Positions 33,698-36,716 of a stretch of 64,000 nucleotides of DNA are shown here, piece by piece. The notes under the pieces were generated by a model that did no database searches, was not told the DNA's origin, and saw nothing but the letters and a program-made list of their open reading frames with translations. Numbering within the stretch: the first letter of the stretch is position 1; every line of letters starts with the position of its first letter. The stretch comes from a bacterium (lineage in GTDB: Bacteria; Sumerlaeota; Sumerlaeia; SLMS01; JAHLLQ01), in assembly GCA_020444065.1 (NCBI GenBank), contig JAHLLQ010000007.1, positions 186,001 to 250,000 of the forward strand, written 5' to 3'. Made by a program: the position numbers and the translations under genes.

Positions 33698-34020
33698 GGC
33701 GAGACCTCGCGAGAAGACGTGTGCGGCGGTGTGTTTCCGTCGGAATACGGTCTTCTCGCGATGCGCGGGGAGCAATGCGAAACGCTGGGGCGCGTTGATG
33801 CGTCGCGCCTTCAGCGCTTCGCGACGGGGCGTGGGTTCCCCAGGGCTTGCGCCCTGGGCTGGTATACGCGGGGCGTTGCCCCTTTGCGGGGTGGTGCGAG
33901 CACGATTACGAGCACGATGACGGGGGGTGTTTGTGTCATTGGGGGTTTGTGCTTGACGGGAATGCCCGCGGGCCGGTTTCGATAGGTCTGCAGTTTGGGA
34001 ATGAACTCTCGAAGGTTTTC
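33698..34020. repeat. Intergenic D-C-E-F repeat composite
   Basis: 323 bp between the deacetylase and ilv leader. Contains D 33805-33819 (GCGCCTTCAGCGCTT), C 33838-33865, E 33867-33886 and a degenerate F 33896-33920 (CGAGCACGATTACGAGC). The ilv promoter must lie to the right of it; TTGACG at 33953-33958 is a candidate -35 but I see no -10 at correct spacing. Confidence 0.8.
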
Positions 34021-34146
34021 ATGATGAAGCAGCGCCTGACGATGACTGAATCTCTTGCCGGCCCGGTTCTTTCGGGTGCGGTGGCGCTGATTAATGTCCT
34101 GCTTCTCGTACTGGTACGCCGGCCCTGGGGTGCGGCGACCGTCTGA
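34021..34146 (+). CDS. ilv leader peptide rich in Leu, Val and Ile
   Basis: 41 codons. ATG at 34021 follows GAAGG. Residues 21-32 read VALINVLLLVLV, with ten of twelve residues branched-chain, then RRPWGAATV and TGA. An mRNA hairpin and an intrinsic terminator follow before ilvB. This is the layout of ribosome-mediated attenuation: slow decoding of Leu/Val/Ile codons when charged tRNA is scarce would prevent the terminator and allow ilvBN expression. The ORF is too short for normal gene calling but is well supported by its context. Confidence 0.85.
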   Translation: MMKQRLTMTESLAGPVLSGAVALINVLLLVLVRRPWGAATV

Positions 34147-34206
34147 ATGGTCTCCCTACACACTCCAGGGCCGAATAACCGACCGCTGTTCGAGGCGGTC
34201 TTTTTT
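34120..34206 (+). promoter_or_regulatory. ilvBN transcription attenuator
   Basis: CGGCCCTGGGGTG at 34120-34132 (inside the last leader codons) pairs with CACTCCAGGGCCG at 34161-34173, one G-U pair. The terminator stem GACCGC/GCGGTC at 34181-34186 and 34195-34200 is followed by six T. A possible alternative pairing is GGCCG (34169-34173) with CGGTC (34196-34200), which would disrupt the terminator if the ribosome stalled over 34120-34132; this is short and unproven. Confidence 0.8.
34181..34206 (+). terminator. Intrinsic terminator inside the ilv leader
   Basis: 6-bp GC-rich stem (GACCGC/GCGGTC), 8-nt loop, then TTTTTT at 34201-34206, 46 nt before the ilvB start codon. Confidence 0.85.
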
Positions 34207-34251
34207 GCGTGAATCGATCACCGAAGGGTTTGAATACATAAGGAGCGAGCA

Positions 34252-36099
34252 ATGACTGCCGAGCATATCGAACAGAAAACGACTTCCTCGCCGATTGGCC
34301 AGAAGATGAACGGCGCGGATATGATCATCCAGGTGCTGGCGGACGAGGGCGTCGATACGGTCTTTGGTTACAGCGGCGGCGCGATTCTGCCGACTTACGA
34401 CGCGGTGTTCCGTCACAACGCGCAGCAGGAGAAGGATCCGAAGAATCAGATTCGTCTGGTTGTTCCGGCAAACGAGCAGGGCGCGGGCTTTATGGCGGCG
34501 GGCTATGCGCGATCGACGGGGCGCGTCGGGGTTTTTCTTGTGACGTCGGGTCCGGGCGCGACGAATTGCGTGACGCCGATCCGCGACAGTATGGCGGACT
34601 CCGTCCCCGTGGTGATGATCAGTGGCCAGGTTCCGCGCGCGGCAATCGGCAGTGATGCGTTCCAGGAAGCGCCGGTTTTCAATATCATGAGCTCGTGCGC
34701 GAAGCATGCGTTCCTGGTGGAGGATCCGGAAGAGCTGGAAGCAACGATTCGCACGGCGTTCGAGATTGCTCGCAGCGGCCGACCGGGTCCGGTGGTGATC
34801 GATGTCCCGAAGGATGTGCAGAATTGGATCGGAACGTATAAGGGCGAAGGAACCCTGTCTTTTCGCGGTTACCAGAAGCGCGTCGAGTCGTTGATGAATT
34901 CGCGTGTGCCGAAGCGGCGCGCGGAGCAGTTTTTCGAGATGTTGGGCGAGTCGAAGCGTCCGCTGATTTATGCAGGCGGCGGCGTGATCAACAGCGGCTC
35001 CGCAGAGACGTTGCGGAAGTTCTCCGAGCATTTCGGCATCCCGGTTGTGACGACGCTGATGGGAATTGGCTCGATGGATACGCAGAGCGACCTGTGCATG
35101 AACATGCTCGGAATGCACGGCGCGGCGCACGCGAACTATGCGGTGGAAGATTGCGATTTCCTGATCGCGGTGGGTTCGCGTTTCGATGATCGCGTGGCGG
35201 GCAAGGTGAAAGAGTTTGCGCCGTTGGCGAAGAACTTCGCGCACATCGATATCGATGCGGCGGAAATCGGGAAGGTGAAGATCGTCGATTGGTCGCACGT
35301 CGGGGATGCAGGGCGTGCGCTGGAGGATCTGATGGACTTCGGCAAGGAGTTCAAGCGCGACTTCTCGCAGTGGGGGGCGTACTGCAAGGAACTGAAGACA
35401 AAGTACCCGATGGACTACGATCGGAACAGCAAGTTGATTCAGCCGTATTTTGTGCTGGAAACATTGAACGATCTGACAAAGGGCGATGCGATCGTCGTGA
35501 CCGGCGTCGGGCAGCATCAGATGTGGGCGGCGCAGTATTGCGCGGTCAGTAAGCCGCGCTCGTTCCTGACGAGCGGCAGCATGGGCACGATGGGATTCGG
35601 CTTGCCGGCGGCAATCGGCGCGCAGGCGGCGAATCCGGATCGGCTTGTTGTGGATGTGGATGGCGACGGTAGCTTGCGCATGAACCTGGGCGAGCTGGAA
35701 ACGGCGACGACGTACGATCTGCCCGTGAAGGTCTTGCTGTTCAACAACCTGGGCGATGGGATGGTGCGTCAGTGGCAGAAGATGTTCTTCGGCGAACGTT
35801 TCTCGGGCAGTGACAAGTCGCTGCACGCGAAGGACTTTGTGAAGGCGGCCGAGGCGGATGGCTACAAGTTCGCCGAGCGGCTGACCGACAAGGCGAAGGT
35901 GCGCGAGGTTCTTGAGCGGTTCATCACGTTCGAGGGGCCTGCGTTCCTGGAGGTGATGATCGATCCGGACGCCGGCGTGTATCCGATGGTCGGTCCGGGA
36001 ATGGGCTACAAGCAGATGATCACCGGCGAGCACATCAAGCGCCGCGACCAGGGGCCGATTGAGAAGGTCGATCCCGAGTCGACGCCGGACTTGTTCTAA
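34252..36099 (+). CDS. ilvB: Acetolactate synthase, large subunit
   Basis: 615 residues. It makes acetolactate or acetohydroxybutyrate, the first common step to valine, leucine and isoleucine, using TPP, Mg and FAD. Glu75 of the TPP site is present (VPANEQGAGFMAAGYAR), although the usual His two residues before it is Asn. The TPP-Mg motif GDGS with NN about 26 residues on is intact (VDGDGSLRMN ... LLFNN), as are VGQHQMWAAQ and MVRQWQKMFF. ATG at 34252 after AAGGAG. It is followed by ilvN after 32 nt and controlled by the upstream attenuator. Confidence 0.95.
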   Translation: MTAEHIEQKTTSSPIGQKMNGADMIIQVLADEGVDTVFGYSGGAILPTYDAVFRHNAQQEKDPKNQIRLVVPANEQGAGFMAAGYARSTGRVGVFLVTSGPGATNCVTPIRDSMADSVPVVMISGQVPRAAIGSDAFQEAPVFNIMSSCAKHAFLVEDPEELEATIRTAFEIARSGRPGPVVIDVPKDVQNWIGTYKGEGTLSFRGYQKRVESLMNSRVPKRRAEQFFEMLGESKRPLIYAGGGVINSGSAETLRKFSEHFGIPVVTTLMGIGSMDTQSDLCMNMLGMHGAAHANYAVEDCDFLIAVGSRFDDRVAGKVKEFAPLAKNFAHIDIDAAEIGKVKIVDWSHVGDAGRALEDLMDFGKEFKRDFSQWGAYCKELKTKYPMDYDRNSKLIQPYFVLETLNDLTKGDAIVVTGVGQHQMWAAQYCAVSKPRSFLTSGSMGTMGFGLPAAIGAQAANPDRLVVDVDGDGSLRMNLGELETATTYDLPVKVLLFNNLGDGMVRQWQKMFFGERFSGSDKSLHAKDFVKAAEADGYKFAERLTDKAKVREVLERFITFEGPAFLEVMIDPDAGVYPMVGPGMGYKQMITGEHIKRRDQGPIEKVDPESTPDLF

Positions 36100-36131: not shown

Positions 36132-36716
36132 ATGAGTAACAATGGAAGCCATACAGAAGGTCAGGAGTTCGTGATTTCGGTGCTGGTGGAGAACCGGTTC
36201 GGTGTGTTGGCGCGAATCGCGAGTCTGTTCGCCGCACGAGGTTTCAATATCGAGTCGCTGGCTGTCGGCACGACGCACGATCCGACGGCGAGCCGCATGA
36301 CATTGGTTGTTCGAGGCGACTCCACGATCATCGAGCAAATTCAAAAGCAACTGAACAAGCTGATCGAAGTCATCAAGGTGCAGAATCTGACAGAGCTCGG
36401 CAGCTACATCGATCGCGAACTGGTGCTGATCAAGGTCACGGTTCCGCCGGGACGACGCACGGATGTGATCGAACTGGTGAAGATCTTCAAGGCGAAGCCG
36501 ATCGACATTACACCGGATACGATGTCGCTGGAAATCACGGGTCATCAGCCGAAGATCGAAACGTTCCTGGAGATGCTGGCGCCGTACGGTCTGCTGGAGG
36601 TTGCACGCACGGGTCGCGTTGCGCTGACGCGCGGTCCGGGCGGTTTGCACTCGTCGTTCACGCGCACGTACGCAGCGGGACAGAGCACGAAGCACGCGAC
36701 GCCGTTGAAGAGCTAG
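36132..36716 (+). CDS. ilvN: Acetolactate synthase, small regulatory subunit
   Basis: 194 residues. The N-terminal ACT domain (EFVISVLVENRFGVLARIASLFAARGFNIESLAVG) binds valine and gives feedback inhibition; the second half (RELVLIKVTVPPGRRTDVIELVKIFKAKPID) matches the IlvH C-terminal domain. The length suits the long bacterial form. ATG at 36132 follows ATGGAGCG. Its stop codon lies within an AGTGGCTAGTG-type array, and an intrinsic terminator follows 83 nt later. Confidence 0.95.
   Translation: MSNNGSHTEGQEFVISVLVENRFGVLARIASLFAARGFNIESLAVGTTHDPTASRMTLVVRGDSTIIEQIQKQLNKLIEVIKVQNLTELGSYIDRELVLIKVTVPPGRRTDVIELVKIFKAKPIDITPDTMSLEITGHQPKIETFLEMLAPYGLLEVARTGRVALTRGPGGLHSSFTRTYAAGQSTKHATPLKS

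Follow-up and report, generated by a model that had tools for sequence, protein, structure and literature searches.

The ilvBN genes in the window, the 64-kb stretch of DNA analyzed here, are preceded by a leader peptide reading frame with branched-chain amino acid (BCAA) codons close to its end, by a hairpin (P) and by an intrinsic terminator, and all three are conserved within the family. We consider it probable (about 0.85) that these elements serve a BCAA-responsive, ribosome-mediated attenuation of some kind. That such an attenuation of ilvBN would run as outlined below, with P, a hairpin formed around the leader stop codon, as the favoured sensing element, we regard as an even call. The order given in the original prediction, namely a 41-codon leader, a 13-bp hairpin beginning in its last codons, a GC stem followed by six T and then ilvB, can be read directly from the sequence:

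33953–33958, forward strand: candidate −35 element TTGACG, a weak assignment from sequence reading
34011–34015, forward strand: candidate ribosome-binding site of the leader, GAAGG, from sequence reading, 5 nt 5′ of the ATG
34021–34146, forward strand: leader peptide ORF, MMKQRLTMTESLAGPVLSGAVALINVLLLVLVRRPWGAATV, 41 codons, ATG at 34021 and stop TGA at 34144–34146; related leaders in all four other family genomes
34105–34116, forward strand: control codons CTC GTA CTG GTA (Leu-Val-Leu-Val); CTC GTA NTN GTA is invariant in five genomes
34120–34132, forward strand: 5′ strand of hairpin P, CGGCCCTGGGGTG, with TGG at 34126–34128 where four relatives have a TGA stop
34161–34173, forward strand: 3′ strand of hairpin P, CACTCCAGGGCCG, from folding, with compensatory pairs in five sequences
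34181–34206, forward strand: intrinsic terminator, a 7-bp stem (34181–34200) and T6 (34201–34206), at the equivalent place in 5/5 family genomes
34252–36099, forward strand: ilvB, acetolactate synthase large subunit (TIGR00118, 664 bits, cut-off 538)
36132–36716, forward strand: ilvN (ilvH type), acetolactate synthase small subunit (TIGR00119, 194 bits, cut-off 56.9; NF008864 also above cut-off)

As both downstream genes are confirmed by curated models, the leader precedes a genuine ilvBN pair. The putative −35 element was not picked up by a consensus scan, and no good −10 element was found; by eye, TTGAC[GT] is also found 5′ of the leaders in four further genomes (G001–G004). Codons 21–32 of the leader, VALINVLLLVLV, form a run of BCAA control codons near the end of the ORF, and the terminator (GACCGCT-GTTCGA-GGCGGTC, then T6) lies between the leader and the first structural gene. 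The segment 34100–34215 folds with −55.2 kcal/mol (z = −5.3), a value equaled by none of 200 shuffled sequences. Within this fold, hairpin P comprises 13 pairs (34120–34132 with 34161–34173) and has no bases in common with the terminator, P ending at 34173 and the terminator stem starting at 34181.

Two further candidates in this region were examined and set aside. A second ORF running from the UGAAUG overlap (from 34147) through the terminator lacked conservation by eye, and a pairing between the P loop and the 3′ arm of the terminator (GACCGUC:GGCGGUC, 7 bp), which looks good by eye in the window, was not found in the four relatives.

Conservation was analyzed in a phylum sample of 40 genomes, 39 of them from one class, which contains the window genome (5.2 Mb in 14 contigs) and, including it, five genomes of its family from three genera. 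Leader, P and terminator occur in one copy each in 5/5 family genomes, and the loss of leader or terminator from a retained ilvBN, or a free drift of the codons, was not seen inside the family. Besides the invariant CTC GTA NTN GTA, the codon content of the leaders stays BCAA-preserving. In the four relatives the peptides end in VVVRRP, VLVRRP, VVVRLP and VVVRLP, with the hairpin at the equivalent place, and the gap from P to the terminator is 7–9 nt throughout the family. In one genome (G002) the leader is 671 nt 5′ of the ilvB match, the two being separated by an ORF insertion (L124, G002:C216; ∼160–180 aa, about 90–640 nt before ilvB) that the other four family genomes lack. In the sister family an ilvB leader is present in only two of seven genomes (G008 and G010), and no leader was seen in the ilvB upstream regions of the other five.

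A covariance model built on the control codons and hairpin P (R2) gave exactly one match per family genome, with E values from 1e-14 to 2e-18, and, at E ≤ 0.001, nothing in the other 381 of the 386 genomes searched. In the alignment of the five sequences, 95.4% of the cells in P are paired and three pairs are changed on both sides, while sliding the partner strand by one to three columns reduces pairing to 29–55%. Covariation as predicted for this hairpin is thus present, and the compensatory pairs support P, though not overwhelmingly, since the sequences are few and the shuffle control leaves their relatedness in.

One of the three compensatory pairs involves the leader stop codon itself. In the four relatives a UGA stop, preceded by Pro, lies within the 5′ strand of P; in the window, UGG takes its place at 34126–34128 and the opposite base is changed as well, such that the A-U pair of the relatives at the third codon base becomes G-C here. 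Because UGA is replaced by UGG, the window leader is six codons longer (WGAATV) and no longer ends in Pro. A Pro codon directly precedes the stop in 9 of the 12 leaders surveyed across the phylum (see below), the window leader not being among these. Pro before a stop codon slows release, which would keep the hairpin open.

To place these leaders, we surveyed 45 ilvB upstream regions of the phylum for a leader whose BCAA run lies near the stop codon, followed by a terminator within 130 nt. This layout was found in 12 regions, the window's included, and in 0 of 450 shuffled regions. A second model (R3), representing an ivbL-like form and including E. coli ivbL among its sequences, matched nine phylum genomes at ilvB (G024, G036, G029, G012, G016, G037, G015, G025 and G030; loci L164–L169, L171, L172 and L176), four of which (G015, G025, G030 and G037, with matches adjoining ilvB) were additions to the survey set, bringing the genomes with ilvB leaders to 16 of 40. 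The R3-matched leaders closely resemble E. coli ivbL in sequence and mostly precede a second, more distant type of ilvB. R3 also matched outside the phylum (L173–L175, L170, L177 and L178), for example 16 nt before the ilvB match of G053, and, at E ≤ 1e-4, had no match in any of the family's five genomes. A weak R3 match (E 5e-5) was recorded at L179 (G006:C256:4301-4377), on a contig other than the one carrying ilvB of that genome. The view that such a layout would be notable in an uncultured lineage is weakened by these counts, which indicate that attenuation in the lineage is probably common rather than exceptional.

We also analyzed valine codon usage in the leaders. Over the last 20 codons of the 12 phylum leaders, GTA accounts for 34 of 56 Val codons, compared to 9 of 502 in the ilvB genes of these genomes; among the counted genes of the window it makes up 3 of 127. 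The binomial p value of this enrichment is tiny, with related leaders counted as independent. Of all findings, this enrichment points most strongly to a leader that is likely to be translated and to codons that may matter.

From the sequence we infer a course of regulation in which leader translation, ribosome stalling, the assignment of P to the starved state and the action of P on the terminator are each putative steps. When BCAA-charged tRNAs are short, the ribosome translating the leader would stall at the Leu-Val-x-Val codons with their rare GTA, just before P, and P would fold; the 5′ strand of P begins 12 nt past the first GTA of CTC-GTA-NTN-GTA, roughly where a ribosome stalling at this point would have its leading edge. 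When they are ample, the ribosome would reach the stop codon, on the 5′ strand of P in the relatives or in the loop of P in the window, and thereby hold P open, such that the terminator could form and transcription would end. Scarcity of charged Val, Leu or Ile tRNA would in this way lead to ilvBN expression. P is read as an ON-state element because it is placed like an ivbL-type antiterminator, as its start falls within the last codons and its 5′ strand includes, in the relatives, the stop codon; we hold this assignment only tentatively, at somewhat under even odds. P may hinder the terminator by interference at the RNA exit channel of the polymerase, a guess prompted by the conserved 7–9-nt spacing.

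Several points count against this mechanism. With a ribosome at the second GTA, half of the 5′ strand of P would be hidden beneath it. Since P can refold after release at the stop codon, the off state would need a lingering ribosome, and the window leader does not end in Pro. Moreover, P and the terminator share no bases and folding predicts the terminator to be highly probable at nearly every ribosome position, so that a switch made purely of secondary structure is not visible.

In a classical attenuator, stalling of the ribosome at the control codons exposes an RNA segment, which then sequesters the terminator 5′ arm. To look for such a pairing, we moved the leading edge of the ribosome (A site + 12 nt) through each leader and calculated the gain from upstream pairing of the terminator 5′ arm before its 3′ arm is made, all energies being equilibrium values. 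For the E. coli trpL and ivbL benchmarks the scan returned −10.5 and −17.4 kcal/mol, respectively, with the ribosome at the appropriate codons, and close to 0 with it at the stop. Stalls in six phylum leaders (G010, G012, G016, G024, G029 and G036) yielded −12 to −27, compared to 0 to −7 at their stops; the value for G008 (−9) is less certain, given its shuffle p of 0.17. For the five family leaders, the best gains reached only about −3.8 to −5.7 kcal/mol. At the stalls compared to shuffled sequence, their gains (−2.5 to −5.4) lay within the shuffled range (p 0.20–0.86), and for the window they ran in the wrong direction, with −6.0 at the stop versus −3.8 at the best stall. In none of the five family members did the scan find an antiterminator exclusive with the terminator and freed by a stalled ribosome. 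The original prediction of a complete classical attenuator therefore stands for the control codons for BCAA and the terminator that follows them, and is not confirmed as to completeness, as a scan that works on trpL, ivbL and six phylum leaders detects no antiterminator.

The alternative that survives best is nonetheless a classical four-segment attenuator with a weak antiterminator, which we consider possible but clearly less probable than not. Here, P would be the 1:2 hairpin; with its 5′ strand masked by the ribosome, CAGGG in its 3′ strand would pair with the terminator 5′ arm (CC-G-CUG, with a single G bulged out). This pairing can be drawn in 5/5 family genomes if G-U replacements are allowed, and the consensus fold shows it once the 5′ strand and loop of P are removed; in addition, CCGCUG is invariant in the family, although in the window its last G falls outside the terminator stem. 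Against this, the consensus energy of the pairing is just −2 to −2.5, the family gains at the tested stalls (−2.5 to −5.4 kcal/mol) lie within the range of shuffled sequences and well short of the benchmark values, and the window gain is larger at the stop than at the stalls. We keep this reading because a weak antiterminator, with a calculated −6.8 kcal/mol, is functional in Corynebacterium glutamicum ilvBNC (PMC11857589).

The scan result is also compatible with a decayed or constitutive attenuator, in which leader and terminator persist without switching and the terminator sets a basal level only. The five of seven sister-family genomes without an ilvB leader indicate that the system is dispensable and speak for such decay. 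However, the elements are kept in 5/5 genomes of three genera, and compensatory changes in P together with conserved rare GTA codons are unexpected in a relic; we rate this explanation as improbable.

A related hairpin is found at a second BCAA locus of the family, leuA. In four family genomes, the window's included, leuA is preceded by a T-box (RF00230, 48–86 bits and thus under the curated score of 93, E 5e-8 to 7e-18) with its own terminator and, by eye, an apparent CUG (Leu) specifier:

72200–76021 of contig C7 of the window genome (G000; L147), reverse strand: leuA locus, T-box at locus positions 2554–2800; the loci in the other family genomes are L182, L183 and L185

On the 3′ side of this T-box and its terminator follows a second leader, Leu-rich (e.g. 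MMRESTLNLLHLLLGGLRLGRP) and ending in Pro-UGA, so that T-box and leader peptide stand in tandem. A hairpin (z −2.1 to −4.1) includes the UGA in its 5′ strand, no intrinsic terminator was found behind this hairpin in the four family genomes, and a stretch of 61–92 nt with 31–47% C and 16–23% G leads to the leuA start. The recurrence of the stop-codon hairpin at leuA without a terminator argues for a role of its own. That a hairpin around the Pro-UGA of the leader might be the sensor at both BCAA operons and control elongation with no antiterminator overlapping the terminator seems to us doubtful, at roughly one chance in four.

The same leuA arrangement, a Leu-rich peptide with its Pro-UGA in a hairpin, no intrinsic terminator and then a C-rich stretch, would fit a different explanation, in which P works via Rho or translation instead of the intrinsic terminator, as may hold at leuA of the family. 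We give this slightly less weight than decay, given that every family ilvB copy has an intrinsic terminator, that the stretch 3′ of the terminator in the window is not C-rich and that the rut reading at leuA is one of composition only. Finally, an ORF arisen by chance before an ordinary terminator, or some unrelated structured RNA such as a riboswitch or T-box, has nothing in its favour beyond the GC-rich context. Rfam (release 15) gave no match at the curated gathering score in the 64-kb window, and in 33900–34300 weak and unrelated matches only (E 0.18 or worse). This explanation is already refuted by conservation and covariation in the five genomes and by the failure of any of the 450 shuffles to reproduce the layout.

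The family leaders can be compared to several known systems. Akin to E. coli ivbL, they combine a BCAA-rich leader before ilvBN, a stop codon at the start of a hairpin strand and a terminator with T tract before ilvB. In contrast, ivbL and ivbL-like leaders have a strong antiterminator formed by the last codons (GCGCC..GGG) and the terminator 5′ arm, which the family lacks, P pairing instead with a separate 3′ strand; as to the ivbL-like pairing of a GCGCC-stop-GGGG strand in the last codons with a CCCC-GCCGGCGC terminator arm, R3 gave no match in 5/5 family genomes at E ≤ 1e-4. E. coli trpL likewise shares the leader, the hairpin over the leader end and the terminator, but its 2:3 antiterminator shows up clearly once the ribosome is correctly placed (−10.5 kcal/mol), and none does so in the window.

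Corynebacterium ilvBNC and the ilvB-II motif, for which a consensus sequence and a two-stem structure have been described (PMC10272879), also show a short leader with a Val run, a hairpin over the leader end and a terminator before ilvB (PMC11857589, PMC10272879). The Corynebacterium peptide end VVVTARRLP resembles VVVRRP and VVVRLP of the family, a likeness to ilvB-II that is by look of the peptide end only. The antiterminator described for ilvBNC joins the hairpin region and the terminator, whereas the family yielded no comparably strong pairing of this kind. Candidate BCAA leaders with a terminator are likewise present before ilvB in Streptomyces and Mycobacterium; their mode of regulation is unclear, and substitution of the candidate codons in S. 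coelicolor left regulation unaffected (PMC1262725). Our literature search, which covered largely open-access papers, found no paper on this leader or on ilvB attenuation in this lineage.

Taken together, these results add probable attenuation by ilvB leaders in an uncultured phylum, with two comparable architectures, one ivbL-like and shared with E. coli, the other family-specific and without a visible antiterminator. If the family-specific form is regulated, the choice between two overlapping hairpins by stall codons would not be the sole design of such a switch. The Pro-UGA within a hairpin at both ilvBN and leuA offers a concrete, mutable element for tests.
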